Assembly: GCA_003167275.1 (NCBI GenBank)
Contig: PMTT01000756.1
Coordinates: 677-33,188, forward strand
From: Bryobacterales bacterium
GTDB lineage: Bacteria > Acidobacteriota > Terriglobia > Bryobacterales > Bryobacteraceae
Reading direction: 5' to 3'
Length of the DNA: 32,512 nt
The translations under genes were made by a program, and so were the position numbers. Below are positions 3,135 through 24,707 of this stretch, piece after piece. The notes under the pieces are model-generated. The model was given only the letters and a program-made list of their open reading frames with translations, did not search any database and was not told the origin of the DNA. Each line of letters begins with the position of its first letter. Position 1 is the first letter of the stretch.

Positions 3135-4977
3135 CTACGCCTCATAGGCGGTGAAGTCCCGGTCGCGTGAGTCGGCGGCGCCGGGACTGGCGTCCAGCTC
3201 GATGCTTGCTCCAGCGCCTTTGATGGCGCGATGCATGTGCGCGAGCGCGGCCGTAGTGGATCGCGGATCGGCAGGTCTTGAAGGCGCCGCGGGACGGGCC
3301 GGAGCGCTCCTTTTGCTCTGCGGCGCCTTGCTCAGCGGCGCCCGAACCGTGCGCGTGTCGCCAGTCTTGAAGAAGGCGATGGTGGACTGCAGGACCTCCG
3401 CCTGGCTGGAGAGTTCTTCGGCCGTGGAGGCCATTTCCTCGGACGCCGCCGAATTCTGCTGGATCACCTGGTCGAGCTGCTGGATGGCCTTGTTGACCTG
3501 GGCGGCCCCGGTGTTTTGTTCGGCGCTGGCCGCCGCGATCTCGCGGACCAGTTCCGCCGTTTTCTGAATGTCGGGAACCAGTCTCGTCAGCAGTTGGCCG
3601 GCGCCTTCGGCGATCTGTACGCCATCGACACTCAGGCGGCCGATCTCGGCAGCGGCTGTCTGACTGCGTTCGGCGAGCTTGCGCACCTCCGATGCCACCA
3701 CCGCGAAGCCCTTGCCGTGCTCTCCCGCGCGGGCGGCTTCCACCGCGGCATTCAACGCCAGAAGGTCGGTTTTGCGTGCGATCTCCTCGATAATGCCGAT
3801 CTTCTCGGCCACCTGTTTCATGGCGCCGACGGTGCGGACCACCGCCTCGCCGCTGGAGCGCGCGTCCTCGGCGGCTTTGGACGCGATCTTGTCGGTCTGC
3901 CTGGCATTGTCGGCGTTCTGTTGGATGCTGGCCGCCATTTCTTCCATGGACGACGTGCTTTCCTCGGCCGCGGAGGCCTGTTCGGTAGCGCCCTGGGAAA
4001 GCCCCTGTGCCGCGGAGCTCATCTCCTCGCTCCCGGTGGCCACGTTGCCCGCGGCGGTGGTAACCTCCGCGACCGTCTTGCGGAGGTTTTCCAACATTTT
4101 CGTGAGCGCCTGTCCGAGGATGTCCTTTTCCGAGAGTGACTTGGCCTCGACGGTCAAATCCCCTTCGGATATCCGGACGGCCACGTGAGCGGCGCCCTTC
4201 AAGTTGTCCACCATACGGTTCATGGCCGTGAGCATGCGGCCGAGCTCGTCGGTGGACGTCACCTCTACGGTGTGCGAGAGATCGCCTTCGGCGACCTGGT
4301 TCACCAGCCCGACGGCGGTTCCCAGCGGGCGGGTGATGCTCCGGACGACGAAGAAGGAAACGCCGATCGCGATGATCAGGGCGGCTGCGATGCCGATCAG
4401 GACGCCCGCGCGGGCGCTTTTCACCGCATCCTGGACCTTCTGCGACTGCTCATCCGCCGAGGATTTGCTGGAGGAAACGAGATTCCCGGCCGCCTCGAGG
4501 TACTGCTTTTCGAGGGGTCTGACCTTCCCGTTGAGCAGATTCATGGCCTGCTTCTTGGCTTCCGCCGTACCGGCCCGGCTGACCTTCATTGCCTCATCGG
4601 ACGCGGCCACATAGTCGTTGGGCGGCCACCAGGGCGTCGAACAGAGCCCGCTCCTTATCGGTGGAAATCAGTTTCTGATAGTCGGCCCGCAGGCCGCGAT
4701 TGTGAGTGCGCGAATCGTTCACATCGGCTTCCAGCCGCTCCATCTCGCCTTTGTCGGCCGAAGCGATATGTTGGAAGGTCAGGCTGTACTCCTTCTGAAT
4801 GCCGTTCTGTACCTGACCGACGAGGTAAACGCCGGGAAGGGAGTGCATTGCGATCTCGGTGGAACTCCTGTCGATGCTTCCCAGGTTGCCGTAGGCGAAT
4901 AATCCAAGCGCCATGGCGATAGCGATCACAGCGGCGAAGCCGGCGGCAATCCGAATTCCGATCTTCCAATTCTTCAT
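3135..4977 (-). pseudogene. Methyl-accepting chemotaxis protein, split by a one-base frameshift
   Basis: Transmembrane chemoreceptor feeding CheA/CheW. The frame starting at ATG 4977 (AGGGA about 7 nt upstream) encodes TM1 (about 8-30) and an outer four-helix sensor, but ends prematurely near 4594. The rest lies in another frame, open from 4610 to 3135. Removing one base from the GGG at 4620-4622 joins them as [12 protein letters not shown] and gives one 613-aa receptor: TM2 (about 190-211), HAMP (about 212-265), a second HAMP-like stretch, and the conserved signalling tip [18 protein letters not shown] (about 397-414). The C-terminus ends DRDFTAYEA. It is the only receptor in the operon. The extra base may be a sequencing error, a real mutation or a slippage site; the 491-aa C-terminal part alone would lack the sensor. 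Confidence 0.9.
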
Positions 4978-5021: not shown

Positions 5022-7154
5022 TTAAGTAATGGCGGCGGTCTGGCCGCCGGTGATCCTACCGGCTGGCGACAGATGGTTCCAAGGCTGCCCGGCAATGCCG
5101 GTGGCACGGCAACCCGCGCCAAAATCCGCAGGATCCTCCCGGCATTGGCGCTCGGCAAACCGCACCACCGCGGCGACGTCCATAATCAACGCCACGCGTC
5201 CGTCACCCATGATCGTCGCGCCGGAGACCACTTCGATGCTCCGCAAGAACTTGCCGAGCGATTGGATAACGGTTTGGTGCGTGCCCAGTACCCGGTCTAC
5301 CACCAGCCCCACGCGGTGGTCTTCGTGCTGCACGATCACGACCTTCTCGATGGAGGGGGCGTTACTCTCGATCCGGAACGCGGTCCGCAGATCGATGTAA
5401 GGAACCAGTTCCCCGCGCACCGCGATCACGTTGCGCCCGTTATTGCGAGCCCTTTGGGAGCGGAGTAACTCGACGTTCTCGGTGACCGCCGCCATGGGGA
5501 CGATGAACTGGTCGCTGCCAATCTCGACGAGCAGGCCCTCAATGATGGCCAACGTCAACGGCAGTGTGATCGAGACCCGGACGCCCTTGCCCTCCTCACT
5601 GGCCAGAGACAAGGAGCCGCGCAAGGCATCGATCTGCCGCTTGACTGCGTCCATGCCCACGCCGCGGCCGGACACGCTGGTGACTTGACGGGCGGTCGAG
5701 AAGCCGGGCATCAGGATGAGGTTGAAAATGTCTTTGTCGGTGAGGCTGGCGGCCGGCGCGATGAGCTGTTTCTCCACCGCCCGGGCGCGGACCGCCGCCC
5801 GGTCGATTCCGCGTCCGTCATCCTGGATGCTGACGACCACATCGGACCCGGTGTGTATGGCGGCAAGGCGGATGGTGGCGCGGCGCGGCTTGCCTTTCGC
5901 CAGGCGTTCCTCGGGAGGCTCGACCGCATGGTCGAGGCAGTTGCGCAAACAGTGCACCAGGGGCTCGCCAAGCTGGTCCAGAATGCTCTTGTCCAGTTCG
6001 GTATCGGCGCCTTCGGTGACGAGGTCGGCCTCCTTTCCGAGTTCTGCCGAAAGGTCATGGACCAAACGCCGGAAGCGGCCGAACAGGGTGCCGATCGGGA
6101 GCATGCGGATTCCGAGCACGTTATCGCGCAGTTCCGCCACCAGCCGTTCCAGCTCCTGAACCGGGTTGGTGAATTCCGGACTTCCACTCTTGGATGCCGC
6201 CTGGGCCAGCCGGGACTGGTTCATGACCAACTCCCCGACGAGGTTCACGAGACGGTCGAGCCGGTTGGACGGCACCCGGACGGTGGACTCTCTGGCCAGC
6301 GCTCTCGACGGTGCGAGTGGGGCGCCTGCCCCGGGGGCGTCGCCGGCGCCCGAATGGTCTGCGGGAGGTGTGACGGCGGGCCGATCCGGCGAGGGGGCGG
6401 CCGCGGTAGATAGAAGAGGGACCGGCGGCAAGACCTCCGGCGTTACTTCGATTTCTAGCTGGCTGTCATCCTCCACGAAAATGAACACGTCCCGGATGAC
6501 GTTCTGGTCGGCGGCACTCTGAAGCGTGATGGTCCACCACAGGTAGCAGAGATCCGGCTGGATCGAGTCGAGTGCCGGCACGTCCTCCGCATGCGCGGTG
6601 ATTTCGCACGGACCCAGCTCGCGAAGTTCCCGCAGCAGCGCGCTGGGGTTGCCGCCATTGACTAGCAGTGAAGGATTCGGACAGAAGCGGATCCGCCATG
6701 TCTGTTCCGCACTTTCGGGGTGCTCCGCGGCGGGCTCGGTGGGCGCGACGCTGCCTTTCTCGGGGATGTTCAGGCCGGGGTTTGCGAACTCTGCGACGGC
6801 CGCGATGAGCCTCTCGCTCGAGCCTGCAGGCGCGGGTGGGCCACCTTGTTCGGCGGCCAGGAGAATCCGGATGTGATCCCGGGCTATCAGCACCAGTTCG
6901 GCCAGCGCCGGGGAAACGGGTATGGCGCCCTCGCGCACTCTGTCGAGGAGGCTCTCCACATGGTGGGTAAAGCCGGCCACGGCGTCCAGACCGCAAATGG
7001 CGCCTGAGCCCTTGATGGTGTGGAAGGCGCGGAAGAGTTGGTTGATGGTCTCCTCGGTCCGCTCTCCGGCGCTAATCGACAGCGCGGATTGCTCGATTTC
7101 CGCGAGGAGTTCCTCGGCTTCCTGGAGGTAGGTCTCAAGCGGGTTATATTGCAT
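5022..7154 (-). CDS. cheA: CheA, chemotaxis histidine kinase
   Basis: Central kinase of the operon (710 aa). Domains in order: HPt (1-105) with the phosphorylated H45 in FHTIKGS; a region about 148-235 that may replace the usual P2 docking domain; an Ala/Pro-rich linker; dimerisation helices (VRVPSNRLDRLVNLVGELVMNQSRL begins there); an HATPase domain with N-box NCLDHAVE, G1 DDGRGID, GFSTA and GRGVGMD; and a CheW-like P5 domain ending near VALIMDVAAVVRF. A tail of about 38 residues after P5 is not family-like and is encoded by palindromic DNA. I chose ATG 7154: GGAAGG lies upstream and the HPt starts there. It overlaps the STAS gene by 11 nt, suggesting translational coupling. Confidence 0.95.
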   Translation of the reverse strand: MQYNPLETYLQEAEELLAEIEQSALSISAGERTEETINQLFRAFHTIKGSGAICGLDAVAGFTHHVESLLDRVREGAIPVSPALAELVLIARDHIRILLAAEQGGPPAPAGSSERLIAAVAEFANPGLNIPEKGSVAPTEPAAEHPESAEQTWRIRFCPNPSLLVNGGNPSALLRELRELGPCEITAHAEDVPALDSIQPDLCYLWWTITLQSAADQNVIRDVFIFVEDDSQLEIEVTPEVLPPVPLLSTAAAPSPDRPAVTPPADHSGAGDAPGAGAPLAPSRALARESTVRVPSNRLDRLVNLVGELVMNQSRLAQAASKSGSPEFTNPVQELERLVAELRDNVLGIRMLPIGTLFGRFRRLVHDLSAELGKEADLVTEGADTELDKSILDQLGEPLVHCLRNCLDHAVEPPEERLAKGKPRRATIRLAAIHTGSDVVVSIQDDGRGIDRAAVRARAVEKQLIAPAASLTDKDIFNLILMPGFSTARQVTSVSGRGVGMDAVKRQIDALRGSLSLASEEGKGVRVSITLPLTLAIIEGLLVEIGSDQFIVPMAAVTENVELLRSQRARNNGRNVIAVRGELVPYIDLRTAFRIESNAPSIEKVVIVQHEDHRVGLVVDRVLGTHQTVIQSLGKFLRSIEVVSGATIMGDGRVALIMDVAAVVRFAERQCREDPADFGAGCRATGIAGQPWNHLSPAGRITGGQTAAIT
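5034..5101. repeat. Cluster of three palindromes encoding the CheA C-terminal tail
   Basis: GGCGG/CCGCC (5034-5048), CCGGT/ACCGG (5047-5062) and CCGGCA/TGCCGG (5089-5101) lie within 70 bp at the 3' end of cheA, just inside its stop codon. They match the style of the intergenic hairpins elsewhere in the window. Confidence 0.5.
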
Positions 7155-7503
7155 CCCGATCGCCTTCCGTGGCCGCGCCAATCGTGTCTGCCGGTGTTTT
7201 GATACTGTCATCTGGCGTCACGTCGGGAAGCGATAGCCCCAGTGCCTCGCTGGCGTTTCGAACGGCGGCGGAGAGCCCGGCCAATCGGAATGGCTTCCCA
7301 AATTGTTCCGCGGTCTTGCGCGCCGAACAGAGCAGTTGGAGCGCGGCCGTATCGCATCCATCCACTTCGGACAGATTGACGGCCGGGCTCGACTCTTCAC
7401 TGACGAAATCGCGGAGTGTCCGGTGAAGTTCCTCCGCCACGCCGATTTCCAAGGTCCCCGCAATCTTCAGCACGTGGTTGGATTCATCTCTCGTGATCTG
7501 CAC
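7144..7503 (-). CDS. STAS-domain protein (anti-sigma-factor-antagonist-like)
   Basis: Small cytoplasmic protein (119 aa) with a single STAS domain. The conserved loop reads LSEVDGCDTAALQLL, where SpoIIAA-type proteins have the phosphorylatable Ser/Thr. I chose the GTG at 7503 because AAGGGAG sits 5-6 nt ahead and the first strand (VQITRDESNHVLKIAGTLEI) begins there; an in-frame ATG at 7545 would add 14 residues. It is the first gene of the chemotaxis operon and overlaps cheA by 11 nt. No RsbW/SpoIIAB-type kinase is encoded nearby, so its partner is unknown. A role inside or alongside the chemosensory array is inferred from position only. The C-terminal 25 residues are outside the domain. Confidence 0.85.
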   Translation of the reverse strand: MQITRDESNHVLKIAGTLEIGVAEELHRTLRDFVSEESSPAVNLSEVDGCDTAALQLLCSARKTAEQFGKPFRLAGLSAAVRNASEALGLSLPDVTPDDSIKTPADTIGAATEGDRDAI

Positions 7504-7743
7504 GGTTTCTCCCTTTGGATCCGATTGAGCAGGCCAGCTCGCCAACCCGCGCCTGGCGGCTCAACACTGTTTCATATCGGTTCAACGGGCGAGGTTTTGA
7601 GGGAAAACAGGAACCGGTATCGGAGAAAGGCGGCAAGGAGATGGGCTGCCAGCTTCAGGCCCCGTGGACGATTCCCAACATTCCCGGCGCGGAGGTCCCG
7701 GCTGACCCAACACAGGCGGGAATACCCGTGCTACAAATCAGTT

Positions 7744-9075
7744 ATGCCACGCCCCATCTGCTTCATGATCATGCCGTACAGCATCAAGCCCACCTCCGCA
7801 TCGCCAGGCAGCGGAGCACCTGACAAAATCAACTTTGACCGGCTGTGGGAAGCCGCACTTCGCCCCGCGATCGACCAGGCCGGTTACGAACCGGTGCGGG
7901 CGAACGAAGACATCGGGGCCCTCATCATCAACGAAATGATCGAACGCCTGGCCATCTCCGACCTGGTGCTGGCCGACGTTTCGATTCCCAACGGCAACGT
8001 CTACTACGAAGTGGGCATCCGCCACGCCGCCCAAAAGCAGGGCTGTATCATGACCGCCGCCACCTGGGCGAAACCGCTTTTCGATATCGACCAGATGCGC
8101 CAGATCCGTTACCCACTGCCCACCGAATGGATCTCCGACGAAGTTGCGGCGGAAATCATTAAGGCCGTCGCAGGCGCGATCCCCATCATGAGCGCCGGCG
8201 ATTCGCCTTTCTATCAGGTCTTCCCCAAGTACCCCGAGTACGACCCGGAGCGCGCCACCTCGTTCAAGAAAAGCCTGGAAGACCTCTCGCGGTTCCAGGC
8301 GGAGATCATCGCCGTCCGCTCCGCCACGGGAGAGGAGTGCCGCAAACGCGCTCTCGACCTTCGTTCGCGATTCCTGAGCGGCGGCCCGATCCAGAAAGCT
8401 GTGGCCGTCGAGGTGATGTACACGCTTCGCGACTGCACGGATTGGGTGACGACGCTCCAGTTTATCGATGGCTTGCCCGAAGACCTCCGCAACTCGACCC
8501 TGGTAAAGGAGCAGCGGGCCCTCGCCCTCTCGAAATCCGGCGACCACGACACCGCCATCGGCGCGCTGCGCGAGCTGATTGCGTCAAGCGGGGACACTTC
8601 CGAACGGCGAGGACTTCTCGGCGGCCGTTATAAGAAGAAGTGGAACACCGGCCACAACCGTATCGATCTCGACCGCGCCATCGCCGAATACGAAGCCGGG
8701 ATGAAGCTCGACCTTAACGATTACTACCCCTCCTGCAACCTCGCGCGCCTCTACCGCACGCGCAAGCGCAAGGGCGACGACGATAAGGCCCGGATCGCGG
8801 CCGCGGTCACCATCATCGCCTGTGAGCGTGCGCGCAATCGCAAGACGAACGACGAATGGCTGAATCCCACGCTCCTCGGCGCGGCTTTCGATGCCGGAGA
8901 CGTCGACAAGGCCCAGGAACTCGCCACCCAGGTGGCCACGGATGGCCCATCTGTCTGGAAGCTCGAGACGACCCTGGAGGACTGCCGGACTGCCGCCGGG
9001 TTGTACCCGGACCCGACGAAGAGCGAGCTCCTGGATGTGATCGCCCAACTGGAGGCAAATCTGCCTGCGAAGTAG
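7744..9075 (+). CDS. Deoxyribosyltransferase/TIR-like plus TPR protein, relative of ASK1 'MAP3K TRAFs-binding' proteins
   Basis: A 443-aa soluble protein. The N-terminal domain (about 1-150) opens with the strand PICFMIMPY, continues with ALRPAIDQAGYEPVRANED, and has the motif SDLVLADVSIPNGNVYYEVG (73-91). That motif is typical of nucleoside-deoxyribosyltransferase-like and TIR-like folds, with D78, N85, Y88 and E89 as likely pocket residues. The second half (about 200-440) is helical and TPR-like: IDLDRAIAEYEAGMKLDLND (about 311-330) reads like a repeat unit. The combination matches my recollection of Pfam MAP3K_TRAFs_bd (formerly DUF4071), shared by bacterial proteins and animal ASK1. The ATG at 7744 starts at the first strand; no clear Shine-Dalgarno is seen. 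It is divergent from the chemotaxis operon. An NAD- or nucleotide-processing or sensing role is inference. Confidence 0.72.
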   Translation: MPRPICFMIMPYSIKPTSASPGSGAPDKINFDRLWEAALRPAIDQAGYEPVRANEDIGALIINEMIERLAISDLVLADVSIPNGNVYYEVGIRHAAQKQGCIMTAATWAKPLFDIDQMRQIRYPLPTEWISDEVAAEIIKAVAGAIPIMSAGDSPFYQVFPKYPEYDPERATSFKKSLEDLSRFQAEIIAVRSATGEECRKRALDLRSRFLSGGPIQKAVAVEVMYTLRDCTDWVTTLQFIDGLPEDLRNSTLVKEQRALALSKSGDHDTAIGALRELIASSGDTSERRGLLGGRYKKKWNTGHNRIDLDRAIAEYEAGMKLDLNDYYPSCNLARLYRTRKRKGDDDKARIAAAVTIIACERARNRKTNDEWLNPTLLGAAFDAGDVDKAQELATQVATDGPSVWKLETTLEDCRTAAGLYPDPTKSELLDVIAQLEANLPAK

Positions 9076-9097: not shown

Positions 9098-10756
9098 CTA
9101 TCCCAAAGTCAGCGTCAGCCTGGTGACCGAGGCGGGCGGGAACTGGTGGACCAGGCCTGAGCCTTTGACCGCGACCGTGACCGGCTTGGGTTCCACGGCC
9201 CGCGGATCGGCGAAGGTGTTGTGCGCGTGCGCATCGGCGGTCGCCAGTGTCACCGCCGCGGCCGAGCGCGGCGTTCCCGCGTGCACTACGATCTCAGCCT
9301 CGTGTACCTGGTCAATCGACGGATTCGTCACCGTCAGGGTAAGCTGGCTGCCGGTCACCGACGCCGATCCGTTCAGTCCGCGCATCGTGGCGGGGCTGCC
9401 GTTGCGGGTGTAGTGCGTCTCGGGCGTCGCGAACACCGTGCGAACCGCGCGGCCACCCTGGTGCGCCGAGTACAGATCGAAGACGTGGTAGGTGGGCGTC
9501 ACGCAGAACTTGTCCTCATGCGCCAGGAAGAGCGATTGCAGGCAGTTCACCAGTTGCGCGATGTTGGCCATGGCCACCTTGTCGGCGTGGCGGTTGAAAG
9601 TGTCAAGCGTGAGACCCGCCAGCACCGCGTCGCGCATGGTGTTCTGCTGGCCGAGGAGCGCCAGGGGGAACGGCTCGGTGCCGGAAGCGTACCACGAGCC
9701 CCATTCGTCCACGACCAGTTTGGTGCGGTGCCGCGGATCGGCTTCGCCCATCAAGGCCCACTGCGAAGCGATCAGCGGCTCCATCTCGTCGGCGCCGCGC
9801 AGGATCTCGTAATACTGCTCGGCATCGAACTGGACGGCGTCGCGCTTTCCCGCGATCCATTCGCTGGTGCGGCCGCCGCTCGCATTCCAGGCGTAGTGAT
9901 GCAACGAGAGGCCCCAGAGGCGGTCCAGGGTGCCCAGCCGCGCGAGCTTGGCGAAGAAGCGCCGCGTCCAGTCCGAGTTGCCATCGTTGCCTCCCGATCC
10001 CACCATCGCGAGCCTCGCGCCGTAGCCCGGCACCCACGCCGTGTAGCGGTTGAACTCGGTGGCATAGTCGTCGGGATCGAAGTTGCCGCCGCAGCCCCAG
10101 GACTCGTTCCCCACGCCCCAGAAGCGCACGCCCAACGGATCGGCCTCGCCATCGGCGGCCCGCTGCGCGCCGAGCGTGGTGGCGTTGGCGGGGGAGTTGC
10201 AATACTCGGCCCAGCGCCAGAACTCCTGCGCCGGCAGGCTCCGGAGGTTGGCGGCGAAGTAGGGCTGCGCGCCCACCTGTTTGCAAAGGCGCGCGAATTC
10301 GACGGTGCCGAACTCGTTGGGATCGTAGACCTGCGGCCCTTCGCGGCGCATGCCCTTGGGCCACTCCTGGGCGTCGAGCCAGAAGTTGGTGCGCTTAGGG
10401 CGCTTCTCGCGCGGGCCGATGCCGTCGCGCCAGTCGTACTGGTCGGCGAAGCAGCCGCCGGGCCAGCGCACCACGCCGGGCTTCACCCGACGGAAGGCAT
10501 CCACAAGCTGCTTGCGGAGACCGTTGACGTGGGGAATGCCGGATCGTTCGCCGACCCAGAGTCCGTCATACACCAGGCCGCCGAGATGCTCGACGAAATG
10601 GCCGTAGATTTCCGGTGCGATGGTGCCGACGGGTTCGTTCAGCAAGATGTCGATGCGCGATTCGGGCGACTGCGCCGAGAGTCGTGGGAGGAGCATCCCC
10701 GGCGATGCCAGCGCGGTGGCGGCAGCGAGGAAGCGTCTACGGGTGGTGGAGGGCAT
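9098..10756 (-). CDS. Alpha-L-arabinofuranosidase, GH51 family, Tat-exported
   Basis: Retaining glycoside hydrolase (552 aa) expected to release arabinose from arabinan or arabinoxylan side chains. The N-terminus STTRRRFLAAATALA is a twin-arginine signal, with likely cleavage near LSAQS, so it acts outside the cytoplasm. The (beta/alpha)8 domain has the acid/base E218 in GVGNESWG and the nucleophile E351 in VVDEWGSWY. Early conserved blocks are EIYGHFVEHLG (49-59) and VRWPGGCFADQYDW (96-109). A C-terminal beta domain (about 430-552) follows, as usual for GH51. Length is normal. It is convergent with the ASK1-like gene 22 bp away, and its 5' side is followed by repeats, so it is probably monocistronic. 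Confidence 0.93.
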   Translation of the reverse strand: MPSTTRRRFLAAATALASPGMLLPRLSAQSPESRIDILLNEPVGTIAPEIYGHFVEHLGGLVYDGLWVGERSGIPHVNGLRKQLVDAFRRVKPGVVRWPGGCFADQYDWRDGIGPREKRPKRTNFWLDAQEWPKGMRREGPQVYDPNEFGTVEFARLCKQVGAQPYFAANLRSLPAQEFWRWAEYCNSPANATTLGAQRAADGEADPLGVRFWGVGNESWGCGGNFDPDDYATEFNRYTAWVPGYGARLAMVGSGGNDGNSDWTRRFFAKLARLGTLDRLWGLSLHHYAWNASGGRTSEWIAGKRDAVQFDAEQYYEILRGADEMEPLIASQWALMGEADPRHRTKLVVDEWGSWYASGTEPFPLALLGQQNTMRDAVLAGLTLDTFNRHADKVAMANIAQLVNCLQSLFLAHEDKFCVTPTYHVFDLYSAHQGGRAVRTVFATPETHYTRNGSPATMRGLNGSASVTGSQLTLTVTNPSIDQVHEAEIVVHAGTPRSAAAVTLATADAHAHNTFADPRAVEPKPVTVAVKGSGLVHQFPPASVTRLTLTLG

Positions 10757-20922: not shown

Positions 20923-22272
20923 CTACTCTGGTTTCCGCAGCGTGTCCCTCCACCGATACAAATCCGTTAGCAACTCATCAACGAGGTTCGCCTGCTGACG
21001 GCGCAGATTGCGCGTCTCGCCCGGATCTTCGTCCAGGTTCGAGAGCCAGATGGCATCTTCCCCTGCCAGCGGCCGGTCGTCCTCACGCCGATCGTATAGT
21101 TGGCCATTCACCACCAGCTTCCAAGGACCTCGGCGAACGGCGAGTTGCCCGCCCTGCGACCAGTACAGGGACTCGTGCGGCGAAGGAGCGCCGTTCAAGA
21201 GGGTCTCCCAAATATCGGACCCGTTCACACGCGGCGGCACGAAGGCGCCCGTTGCCCGGCAGATCGTCGGCAGAATATCCATTGAAATCGCCAGTTCGTC
21301 CGTCCACCCGCCCCTACGCATCCGCGCCGGCCACGAGACAAAGCCGGGCACGTGCATCCCGCCATCGAAAAGGCTGAACTTGAATCCTTTGAATATGCCG
21401 TTGTTGCCGGCCGTGGCGAAATTCCCGTTCAAACCCGCGCGTTTTTCCACCGTAGCGCCGTTGTCTCCCAGGAAGAACATCAGAGTATTCTCCGCGACTC
21501 CCGCCGTTTCCAGTGCGCGCCGGATGCGGCCGATCCCGTCATCTACGGCGGCGATCATGGCGGCGTAGGTCTGGCGCTCCGGCGCGAGGCCCGGAAACCG
21601 CGCCCGGTACTGGTCCGGCGCATGCATCGGATAGTGCGGCGCATTGTAGGCGACGTAGCCGAAGAACGGATTGCCGCGATTGCGCGCGATGTAGGCGGCC
21701 GCCTCCTCGGTGATTCGCTCGGTCAGGTAACGCCCGTCCTCGAAGATCTCGGTGCGGTTACGCCACAGGTCGTGATAATTGGGGACGCGCGGCTCGCCCC
21801 AATAGTATCGGTGCGAATAGTAGTCGACGCAGCCGCTGTGAAAGCCGTAGAAGGAGTCGAATCCGTGCCCTGTCGGGGCGGTCTCATCGGTGTCTCCTAA
21901 ATGCCATTTGCCGAAGCAGGCAGTCCGATAGCCCGCCGTCTTGACCGCGGAAGCGATGGTCGGGACATCGTGCTTGAGCGACGGGCCATTGCCTGCAACG
22001 CCTGCCAATGCCGGGAAGCGGCCCGTCAGGATTGCGGCCCTCGCGGGCGCACAGACCGGCGCGTTCGAATACCAATTGCGAAACTTGAGGCCGCGCTCCG
22101 CCAGCGAGTCGATGTGCGGAGTCTTCAAATCGGCGGCGCCCAAGTACCCGAGATCGTGGCACCCCAGATCGTCGAGCACCACCACCAGAACATTCGGCCG
22201 GTCTGCCGCCGCGCTGCTGAGGAGCGGCGCGGCCAGACTGCCGGCGATGAACCTGCGGCGCGTGGTGTTCAT
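20923..22272 (-). CDS. Tat-exported type I sulfatase
   Basis: A 449-aa arylsulfatase-family enzyme that hydrolyses sulfate esters. The N-terminus NTTRRRFIAGSLAAPLLSSAA is a twin-arginine signal. The metal site begins with D34/D35 in VVVLDDLG. The formylglycine signature is CAPARAAILTGR, with C74 the residue to be modified and R78 the arginine of CxPxR. Later blocks are GKWHLGD and FFLGDNGA. Substrate class is not evident. I chose ATG 22272, with GGGAGG 9 nt upstream, directly at the Tat signal; the same frame continues upstream across other genes and is not real there. Maturation should depend on the FGE encoded convergently 85 bp away. Tat export fits modification and folding in the cytoplasm. 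Confidence 0.94.
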   Translation of the reverse strand: MNTTRRRFIAGSLAAPLLSSAAADRPNVLVVVLDDLGCHDLGYLGAADLKTPHIDSLAERGLKFRNWYSNAPVCAPARAAILTGRFPALAGVAGNGPSLKHDVPTIASAVKTAGYRTACFGKWHLGDTDETAPTGHGFDSFYGFHSGCVDYYSHRYYWGEPRVPNYHDLWRNRTEIFEDGRYLTERITEEAAAYIARNRGNPFFGYVAYNAPHYPMHAPDQYRARFPGLAPERQTYAAMIAAVDDGIGRIRRALETAGVAENTLMFFLGDNGATVEKRAGLNGNFATAGNNGIFKGFKFSLFDGGMHVPGFVSWPARMRRGGWTDELAISMDILPTICRATGAFVPPRVNGSDIWETLLNGAPSPHESLYWSQGGQLAVRRGPWKLVVNGQLYDRREDDRPLAGEDAIWLSNLDEDPGETRNLRRQQANLVDELLTDLYRWRDTLRKPE

Positions 22273-22368
22273 GGGCAATTCCCTCCCTTGGCCAAACTCC
22301 GGAGACTTCCGGAGCACATCGAGTTCGACTGCGTTCATCATATACGTTGCTTCACCGAATGTGGCGCG

Positions 22369-22422
22369 GACACTTGTGTCTGCCGCGTCGAGAGTCGTCT
22401 CGACGTTTTTCGGTCGCGACCG
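22369..22422. repeat. Three palindromes in the sulfatase-peptidase divergent region
   Basis: GACAC-TT-GTGTC (22369-22380), CGTCGAGA-GTCG-TCTCGACG (22386-22405) followed by TTTTT, and the perfect palindrome CGGTCGCGACCG (22411-22422). The middle one looks like an intrinsic terminator on the plus strand, yet it lies upstream of a plus-strand gene. It could be an attenuator or another dispersed repeat. Confidence 0.5.
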
Positions 22423-22503
22423 GTGCCACGGCCGGGGGTGAGTTTTCGACGCGCCCGCGTCTCCGCTTGCGGTGTCACATCCGCCCGCAGTAGCCTGGAG
22501 TGC

Positions 22504-24600
22504 ATGATGCCTTTCCGCCATTGGGTCCCGCTCTCCTTGCTTTCCATGATGGTGGGTACCGCACAAACACCGCCAACCGCGCCGAAGGTCGACCATCGCG
22601 AGGCGCGGCAGGGAGCCACCGTGATCGACGACTATTTCTGGCTGCGCGAAAAGTCCAACCCCAAAGTCACCCAGTACCTGGAAGCCGAAAACGCCTACAC
22701 GGCCGCCATGACCAAGGACCTGCAGCCGTTCAGCGACGCTCTCTACAAAGAGATGCTCGGGCGCATCAAACAGACCGACCTCTCCGTGCCCACGCCCCGC
22801 CACGGCTACCTCTACTATTCGCGCACCGAGGAGGGCAAACAGTACCCCATCCAGTGCCGCCGCAAAGGAACCATGGAGGCGCCCGAGGAAGTGCTGCTCG
22901 ACCTCAACGAGCTGGGCAAGGACAAGAAGTTCGTTGGCCTGGGCGGCTTCGTTGTCAGCGACGACCAGAACCTGGTGGCTTACACAATCGACTACACCGG
23001 CTTCCGCCAGTACGCGCTTCGCGTGAAGGATCTGCGCACCGGGCAGACGCTGCCCGACACCACCGAACGCGTCACGTCGCTGGCCTGGGCCGCCGACAAC
23101 AAGACCCTCTTCCTGGTGACCGAAGATGCCGTCACCAAGCGCAGCGACAAGCTCTGTCGCCACGTGCTGGGCTCCACGAAGTTCGAAGAGATTTACAACG
23201 ATAAGGACGAGCTCTACGACATTGAAATCGGTAAGTCCCGCGACCTGAAGTACCTGTTCCTCGAAAGCGAGGCCAAGGATACTTCCGAAGTGCGCTACCT
23301 GCGCGCCGACCGGCCGGCAGATAAGTTCACCGTCTTTCTGCCGCGCGAAAAGGGTCACCGCTATTACCTGAGCCATCGCGAAGGACTGTTCTACATCCGC
23401 ACGAACAAGAGCGGCCACAATTTCGCCGTGATGACCGCGCCCGAGAACGACCCCTCTCTCAAAAACTGGAAGGTGTTCCTGGCGCACCGCGACAATGTCC
23501 GCATCCAGGATATCGACCTGTTCAAGGACTTCGCGGTCTCCGTGGAAAAAGGCGATGCGCTCGACCACCTGCGCATCCACGATTTCAAAACGGGGGCGTG
23601 GAAGGAAATCGCCTATCCGGAGCCGGTATATTCCGTCTTCCCAGGCGGGACGCCGGATTACGAATCCCACACCTATCGCTACAGCTACCAGAGCTTCGTG
23701 ACTCCGCCGAGCGTTTTCGACTACGACGTGACCACCGGCCAATCCACCCTGCGAAAGCAGCAGGAGGTGTTGGGCGGGTACGACCCGAAGCAGTACGCCA
23801 GTGAGCGCCTCTGGGCCACCGCCCGCGACGGCGTCAAGGTGCCGATCTCGATCGTGTTCAAGAAGGGATTCGAGCGGAACGGCAAAGCCCCGCTCTTCCT
23901 TTACGGTTACGGCAGCTACGGAATCGGCACGCCGCCCACGTTTTCGGGCACCCGCGTGAGTCTGCTCGACCGCGGGATGGCCTACGCCATCGCGCACATC
24001 CGCGGTGGCGACGAGATGGGCGAAAAGTGGCGCGAAGACGGCATGCTCATGAAGAAGAAAAACACCTTCTTCGACTTCATCGACTGCGCGGAATTTCTGA
24101 TCCAGCAGCAGTGGACGTCCAAGGACCGCCTGGTGATCGAAGGCGGCAGCGCCGGAGGCTTGCTGATGGGCGCGGTGGTCAACATGCGGCCCGACCTCTT
24201 CAAAGCGGTGCACGCCGCGGTGCCGTTCGTCGACGTGATGAACACCATGATGGACGCCACACTCCCGTTGACCGTGGGCGAGTATCTGGAGTGGGGCAAT
24301 CCCAACGAGAAGGCCGCCTACGATTACATGAAGACCTACAGCCCCTACGACAACCTGGAGAAGCGTGCGTACCCGGCGATCCTGGTGACCACCAGTTTCA
24401 ACGACAGCCAGGTGATGTACTGGGAGCCCGCCAAATATGTCGCGCGGCTGCGGGCGTTGAAGACCGATTCCAATCCCCTGCTGCTCAAGGTCAAGATGGA
24501 TCCCGCGGGCCACGGTGGCGCCAGCGGACGGTATGACCGGCTGCACGACACGGCTTTCGAGTACGCGTGGATGTTCAGCCAGGTGGGCATCGGTAAGTAG
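22504..24600 (+). CDS. Secreted prolyl oligopeptidase family S9A (oligopeptidase-B-like)
   Basis: Serine peptidase of 698 aa that cleaves short peptides. A signal peptide (about 1-21) precedes the family start KVDHREARQGATVIDDYFWLRE (split over about 28-49). A propeller domain (about 75-420) gates the active site. The alpha/beta hydrolase domain has the triad S549 (EGGSAGG), D634 (FNDSQVMYWEPAKYV) and H670 (AGHGGASGR); the WEPAK and GHGG-SGR contexts favour oligopeptidase B. Classical oligopeptidase B is cytoplasmic, so export is a lineage feature. GGAG lies 3 nt before ATG 22504 and 6 nt before ATG 22507, so the second ATG (697 aa) may be the true start. The TAG is the first part of a long hairpin. 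Confidence 0.94.
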   Translation: MMPFRHWVPLSLLSMMVGTAQTPPTAPKVDHREARQGATVIDDYFWLREKSNPKVTQYLEAENAYTAAMTKDLQPFSDALYKEMLGRIKQTDLSVPTPRHGYLYYSRTEEGKQYPIQCRRKGTMEAPEEVLLDLNELGKDKKFVGLGGFVVSDDQNLVAYTIDYTGFRQYALRVKDLRTGQTLPDTTERVTSLAWAADNKTLFLVTEDAVTKRSDKLCRHVLGSTKFEEIYNDKDELYDIEIGKSRDLKYLFLESEAKDTSEVRYLRADRPADKFTVFLPREKGHRYYLSHREGLFYIRTNKSGHNFAVMTAPENDPSLKNWKVFLAHRDNVRIQDIDLFKDFAVSVEKGDALDHLRIHDFKTGAWKEIAYPEPVYSVFPGGTPDYESHTYRYSYQSFVTPPSVFDYDVTTGQSTLRKQQEVLGGYDPKQYASERLWATARDGVKVPISIVFKKGFERNGKAPLFLYGYGSYGIGTPPTFSGTRVSLLDRGMAYAIAHIRGGDEMGEKWREDGMLMKKKNTFFDFIDCAEFLIQQQWTSKDRLVIEGGSAGGLLMGAVVNMRPDLFKAVHAAVPFVDVMNTMMDATLPLTVGEYLEWGNPNEKAAYDYMKTYSPYDNLEKRAYPAILVTTSFNDSQVMYWEPAKYVARLRALKTDSNPLLLKVKMDPAGHGGASGRYDRLHDTAFEYAWMFSQVGIGK

Positions 24601-24669
24601 CACGGGCATTCTTGCCTGTGTTCGCTTTGGGCTGGAAAAGAAAAACACAGGCAAGAATGCCCGTGCTAC
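24597..24669. terminator. 26-bp inverted repeat, family B, at the peptidase stop
   Basis: Perfect 26-bp arms (24597-24622 and 24644-24669, core GGGCATTCTTGCCTGTGTT) flank a 21-nt loop containing AAAAGAAA. The left arm includes the TAG of the peptidase gene. It should terminate or process the transcript before the ABC transporter genes. The core is not seen elsewhere in the window. Confidence 0.75.
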
Positions 24670-24707
24670 GTCGGAACAAGCCACCCCTCGCCGGCGTCCA
24701 ACCATCT

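Follow-up and report, generated by a model that had tools for sequence, protein, structure and literature searches.

An acidobacterial DRHyd-TPR-S protein with the two-domain order of the ASK1 regulatory region

Animal ASK kinases carry a two-domain sensing end, and a protein of similar build is encoded beside a chemotaxis operon in a soil acidobacterium. The locus raises the question of what the bacterial protein does, and whether its neighbourhood has any part in it. The host, a Bryobacterales bacterium, has a large genome of 11.5 Mb; the stretch of 32,512 nucleotides that was analysed is referred to below as the window. A preliminary description had noted the likeness to ASK kinases and the position next to the operon. 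The gene and its immediate surroundings are as follows.

7744..9075, + strand: DRHyd-TPR-S protein gene, ATG start, 443 aa, stop ending at 9075
5022-7211, - strand: CheA of the chemotaxis cluster, context only, divergent from the DRHyd-TPR-S gene
7144-7545, - strand: STAS protein of the chemotaxis cluster (cluster span 5022..7545), context only, divergent
9098..10756, - strand: alpha-L-arabinofuranosidase gene, context only, convergent with the DRHyd-TPR-S gene

The reading frame upstream of 7744 is open as far as a TTG at 7303. The ATG at 7744 is nevertheless kept as the start, because homology begins at residue 1; orthologue N-termini read MxRPICFM. The dN/dS ratio against five relatives is about 0.08-0.15, a sign of purifying selection that identifies a selected coding gene. 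One flank is occupied by the divergent STAS, CheA, MCP, CheR and CheB genes and the other by the convergent alpha-L-arabinofuranosidase gene, and the DRHyd-TPR-S gene therefore forms a single-gene unit, standing alone and divergent from the chemosensory genes as first described. A scan for promoters and terminators at the gene gave no signal exceeding shuffled sequence.

A functional link to the chemotaxis cluster was considered and rejected. Adjacency to the operon recurs in no close relative: genome G015 keeps the che cluster, with the DRHyd-TPR-S gene absent there and placed on another contig, while G001 has the gene elsewhere, without a CheA orthologue. The adjacency is thus regarded as incidental. 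Within the cluster, the chemoreceptor (3135-4977, - strand) seems to be divided between two ORFs that overlap in different frames, with 4HB_MCP at 4594-4977 and HAMP plus the MCP signal domain at 3135-4610; a frameshift, either real or sequencing-derived, is a possible cause. Elsewhere in the window, a 1260-aa ORF (20923-24705, - strand) has a sulfatase domain confined to its C-terminal part (residues 837-1153) and a long N-terminal extension with no Pfam match at 1e-5.

The protein itself is divided into the following parts.

7753..8118, + strand: N-terminal DRHyd domain (NDT/DNPH1-like Rossmannoid fold), about residues 4-125
7957..8028, + strand: pocket motif SDLVLADVSIPNGNVYYEVGIRHA, residues 72-95, holding D78, N83, N85 and E89
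8008..8010, + strand: E89 codon, aligned to the Glu of DNPH1/Rcl YELG; His in human ASK1
8293..8988, + strand: MAP3K_TRAF_bd (PF13281) match, residues 184-415, the helical TPR half related to the ASK1 central regulatory region
8461..8751, + strand: TPR-S (PF20308, 'Tetratricopeptide Repeats-Sensor') match, residues 240-336, by Pfam

The C-terminal half is TPR-like, as had been proposed, and matches two Pfam families above their curated cut-offs: TPR-S with 67 bits (2.5e-18; cut-off 27.6) and MAP3K_TRAF_bd with 45 bits (1e-11; cut-off 24.1). The relationship to ASK kinases proposed at the outset is thereby confirmed, and it extends to solved structures. Human ASK1 (MAP3K5) is the best PDB profile match, at 7e-4 with a 12-sequence profile and 6.3e-12 with 70 sequences, and ASK1 8qgy is the top PDB match when the AF2 model is searched with Foldseek (480 alignment columns, TMq 0.47). 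The rmsd of 14.6 to 8qgy indicates that the relative placement of the two domains differs. With 5ulm, which holds the ASK1 central regulatory region on its own, Foldseek aligns fewer columns (276-278), and the surplus obtained with 8qgy therefore probably comes from the N-terminal domain. By fold, the window protein thus has the two-domain order of the ASK1 regulatory region, in which TPR repeats come after a Rossmann-like domain. The N-terminal domain of ASK1 has itself been described as thioredoxin-like (PMC10972558). ASK1 also has PH and kinase domains, neither of which is found by Pfam in the 443-aa chain, and it bears an FYHLG motif, with His where the window protein has Glu. The Pfam model DRHyd-ASK (PF20309) gives no match at the window locus even at E 10, and PADLOC and NCBIfam return no significant match for the whole protein.

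Assignment of the N-terminal half depends on more remote comparison, as it has no direct match in Pfam, PADLOC or NCBIfam, including Pfam PF05014 Nuc_deoxyrib_tr, which is narrower than the DRHyd superfamily. Profile A2, built from 16 N-terminal domains and run against solved structures, matched DNPH1/Rcl at 1.7e-5, aligning NpNvyYElG with DNPH1 VGYELG and E89 with the Glu of YELG. A paralogue in the same genome (L085) bridges to Nuc_deoxyrib_tr at 1.3e-5 with 25.7 bits, below the cut-off of 28.8; a neighbouring protein at L113 scores 26.0 bits against the same family, also under 28.8. The AF2 model, built from 70 sequences, has a mean pLDDT of 90.7. An earlier model from 12 close homologues reached 73.5, with a poor N-terminal domain, and addition of viral-contig DRHyd sequences brought about the rise. 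The best fold match of the model in BFVD, a viral library, is a CMP/hydroxymethyl-CMP hydrolase. Profile, paralogue bridge, model and fold match together assign the domain to the TIR-DrHyd-SLOG superfamily (PMC9503650), within its NDT/DNPH1 (DRHyd) branch, and the deoxyribosyltransferase-type fold proposed at the outset is borne out.

The pocket motif and its E89, also pointed out in the preliminary description, are strongly conserved. D78, N83, N85, E89, G91, D114 and Y123 are invariant in 21/21 homologues gathered by methods independent of the motif. The D-N-Y-E motif is retained in homologues together with the helical half; both checks named in the preliminary description, on fold and on homologues, thus came out in its favour. 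In alignment A3 (70 sequences) N83, N85, Y88 and E89 are likewise invariant, partly by construction because its viral loci were chosen for matching N[PAG]N[VA][YFI]YE. Human ASK1 reads FYHLG, placing His at the E89 position in an alignment that is collinear but sub-significant. In NDT and DNPH1, a Tyr hydrogen-bonded to the catalytic Glu goes with 2'-deoxy specificity, and TIR NADases have Phe or Ala at the same position (PMC11204291). The window protein shares the N-terminal fold and the YELG-type motif with aligned Glu of DNPH1/Rcl and the nucleoside 2'-deoxyribosyltransferases, which lack a TPR half and have the strand 1 Tyr; a family-conserved Cys6 (C6) apparently stands at that position in the alignment that we infer for strand 1. 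This replacement points away from a strict deoxynucleotide substrate, and the substrate is therefore not readable from the family. As a whole, the observation lies far beyond chance.

Much of this architecture already has a name. NCBI calls the homologues 'TRAFs-binding domain-containing protein', a group (PF13281 plus PF20308, formerly DUF4071) with the same length, order and N-terminal DRHyd motif as the window protein, and Pfam already names TPR-S, MAP3K_TRAF_bd and DRHyd-ASK. Burroughs and Aravind (J Bacteriol 2020) reportedly predicted a TPR scaffold that recognises NAD-derived signals and was taken up into the ASK signalosome. An origin of ASK-signalosome components in bacterial conflict systems has also been published (PMC8195603, which cites that paper). 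The 'undescribed system' of the preliminary description is thus not one: its domains are Pfam families and its tie to ASK kinases is in print as a prediction.

Gene neighbourhoods of close relatives, meaning proteins with at least 40% identity to the window protein, give the family a context. In an 81% identical relative (L006) the gene overlaps a tandem TIR/CAP12-TIR gene. In two others (L007, 78%; L008, 80%) a patatin gene lies 13 bp upstream, and a gene that is probably SLOG is divergently oriented; the SLOG assignment of such small neighbour proteins is weak (best Pfam YAcAr, 0.001; best PDB DprA, 0.14). A Spirosoma homologue (L012, 51%) overlaps a patatin-pYEATS gene. On a Rhodococcus plasmid (L226, 41%) the overlapping gene (L226:9427-11109) encodes a patatin that probably carries a SLOG domain at its N-terminus, and the two Rhodococcus genes look like a sensor-effector pair. 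On an R. leguminosarum plasmid (L111, 44%) the cluster comprises patatin, DUF4231, CAP12-TIR and a second TPR-S protein. At L011 a TIR-WD40 gene lies upstream and a homologue of that gene downstream, and the L010 gene is divergent from an alpha/beta-hydrolase-TPR-S gene. Two Bacteroidetes relatives (L013/L014) adjoin a gene for a 206-aa protein whose family has no Pfam match; a homologue also follows the own-genome paralogue C288. The patatins next to these genes match phospholipase effectors of PADLOC, at best at 6e-44. At L111:5998-7334, the closest R. leguminosarum homologue is annotated as two ORFs and is probably frameshifted.

No recognised partner genes lie beside the window copy, L005, L009 or L015. 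Searches of the window by tblastn with the partner proteins of relatives revealed no remnant of a patatin or TIR gene, the window neighbours examined include no ThsA/ThsB genes, and no CD-NTase occurs among the scanned window neighbours or the scanned partner genes of close relatives. Because the window copy lacks a linked effector or TIR, claims at the level of a system rest on its relatives. In a tree of 24 homologues it groups, with moderate support, with L005, then with L006 (TIR) and with L007 and L008 (patatin).

More distant relatives on plasmids, mostly 25-44% identical, have TIR genes nearby, unlike the window copy. Of 15 annotated plasmid loci, 14 have a TIR gene no more than 6 kb away; 13 of these genes are annotated as such, and the remaining one, labelled 'nucleotide-binding protein', was recognised by a Pfam scan. 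The loci are partly dependent: L118 and L220, both Vibrio plasmids, are nearly the same here, and a single island is common to the Agrobacterium and Neorhizobium loci. As a control, 135 CDS in three 49 kb stretches from three of the same plasmids include no TIR. DUF4231, which we take to be the SLATT family, is present in 6/15 annotated plasmid loci. The TIRs of an E. coli plasmid beside a relative match PADLOC ThsB, and plasmid homologues stand among TIR, toxin-antitoxin and restriction genes. The description of the protein as a 'stress or conflict effector or sensor' fits these neighbourhoods. Rhizobial plasmids (L219, L224, L225) carry a conserved island with DRHyd-TPR-S, a PfkB kinase, a DNA lyase or hypothetical protein, a 7-cyano-7-deazaguanine-synthase-like protein, at least two TIR proteins and DUF4231.

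Virus-assigned sequences also encode the domain. A homologue on viral contig L163 is flanked by two ORFs judged by eye to be TIR-like. Many IMG/VR contigs assigned to viruses (L140-L176) encode 265-320-aa proteins with the same DRHyd domain, and the C-terminal half of the few that were scanned has no Pfam match. Patatin homologues are absent from the viral contigs. The more distant patatins encoded on plasmids are not adjacent to DRHyd-TPR-S genes, so only the nearest patatins show the linkage. The association with patatin and SLOG genes in the close clade may have been covered less fully in earlier descriptions of the family.

The host genome has seven TPR-S matches. Among them are an alpha/beta-hydrolase-TPR-S protein (C711, L080), two TPR-S-trypsin fusions (C462 and C709; L081, L082) and a DRHyd-TPR-S protein with a C-terminal probable SLOG domain (C288, L079:6439-8826), overlapped by a gene of the 206-aa type. 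The fusions in C462, C709 and C711 would represent interchangeable effector domains on one sensor. The same effector set of alpha/beta-hydrolase, trypsin and DRHyd is also fused to bacterial STING (PMC10732462). A single patatin, 33% identical, is encoded on another contig. Distribution is patchy: 29/200 genomes of the bacterial family are positive at E 1e-15, more distant relatives included, and 4/396 genomes of a phylum sample at 1e-30. The close clade nonetheless reaches Verrucomicrobiota, Bacteroidota, Rhizobium and Rhodococcus, a span that suggests spread by horizontal movement.

These observations make it fairly probable that the window protein is a partnerless DRHyd-TPR-S member of nucleotide- or NAD-centred bacterial immunity, in which sensing would fall to TPR-S and cleavage of an N-glycosidic bond to DRHyd. 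The TPR-S half would act as a sensing or regulating scaffold that detects a cue of infection or stress, most plausibly an NAD-derived or nucleotide messenger from TIR-type enzymes. Switched on via the TPR half, the DRHyd half would then cleave the N-glycosidic bond of NAD+ or a nucleotide, with E89 as the putative key catalytic residue. Substrate depletion could lead to growth arrest; alternatively, the product could activate effectors such as the patatin phospholipases encoded beside close relatives. The unlinked window copy would work alone or with partners encoded elsewhere, and animal ASK kinases would have kept the two-domain sensing end and lost the catalytic Glu.

Parts of known defence systems recur around the family. 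TIR- and SLOG-type components of Thoeris (ThsB TIR plus ThsA with its SLOG sensor) are found beside the relatives, but no ThsA was found, a patatin would replace SIR2, and the window has no linked TIR or SLOG. A more specific version of the scheme, which we regard as rather unlikely, would cast close-clade DRHyd-TPR-S proteins as one half of a two-part system resembling Thoeris, the half that senses and makes the messenger: on infection, DRHyd would convert NAD+ to a derivative of ADP-ribose, and a SLOG domain, free or fused, would read this product and unleash a membrane-attacking patatin phospholipase, the window copy being an orphan or using unlinked effectors and ASK kinases having inherited the same end with the enzyme dead. 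With CBASS, the resemblance lies in patatin effectors of the CapV kind; relative to CBASS and the TIR-/DRHyd-STING fusions, no cyclic-nucleotide synthase stands beside the gene or its close relatives, and TPR-S takes the place of STING. The Swarozyc/DUF4062 TIR-like NADases have a TIR/NDT-like domain with a conserved Glu in an antiphage protein; they belong to a different family with no TPR-S reported, and are NADases by experiment (PMC13174449), whereas the window protein is read from its sequence.

The main rival to cleavage by DRHyd is a pure ligand-binding sensor, which would hold a TIR-made NAD-derived messenger uncleaved while the TPR half relays the signal to effectors, much as the ASK1 N-terminal domain serves its kinase. 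For the animal proteins such a role is suggested by the His of ASK1, which regulates even so; the TIR genes tightly linked to relatives could supply the signal, and inactive members of the superfamily bind nucleotides as sensors (PMC9503650). The invariance of E89, D78, N83 and N85 in distant bacterial relatives goes beyond expectation for a degenerate pocket, and we give a non-catalytic bacterial protein a low likelihood.

A housekeeping function of the gene in stress or redox signalling, outside any conflict and possibly tied to the chemotaxis cluster, is distinctly unlikely. Such a role would agree with its divergence from STAS/CheA, with purifying selection and with ASK1 being a stress sensor; it fits poorly with the uncoupling of gene and cluster in G015 and G001, the patchy distribution, and the plasmid homologues amid conflict genes. 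That the protein is a DNPH1-like nucleotide-pool enzyme, sanitising odd deoxynucleotides with TPR repeats for assembly only, seems very improbable even though DNPH1/Rcl are the closest solved N-terminal structures by sequence, given the apparent loss of the DNPH1/NDT Tyr to C6, a TPR half specifically of TPR-S/ASK type, and neighbours that are conflict genes.

The reading of the window protein as a DRHyd-TPR-S enzyme and sensor accords with what was already predicted from sequence for the family, namely that it is a component of bacterial immunity and gave rise to the sensing end of animal ASK kinases. The papers that could be searched contained no biochemical test of the DRHyd-TPR-S family. 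The window copy and its 78-86% identical relatives, small single-chain proteins with an intact pocket, are directly testable, and they make it possible to ask whether the ancestor of the ASK1 N-terminal domain hydrolysed NAD or nucleotides. A phospholipase arm, which may serve in phage defence, is in turn suggested by the relatives linked to patatin genes.
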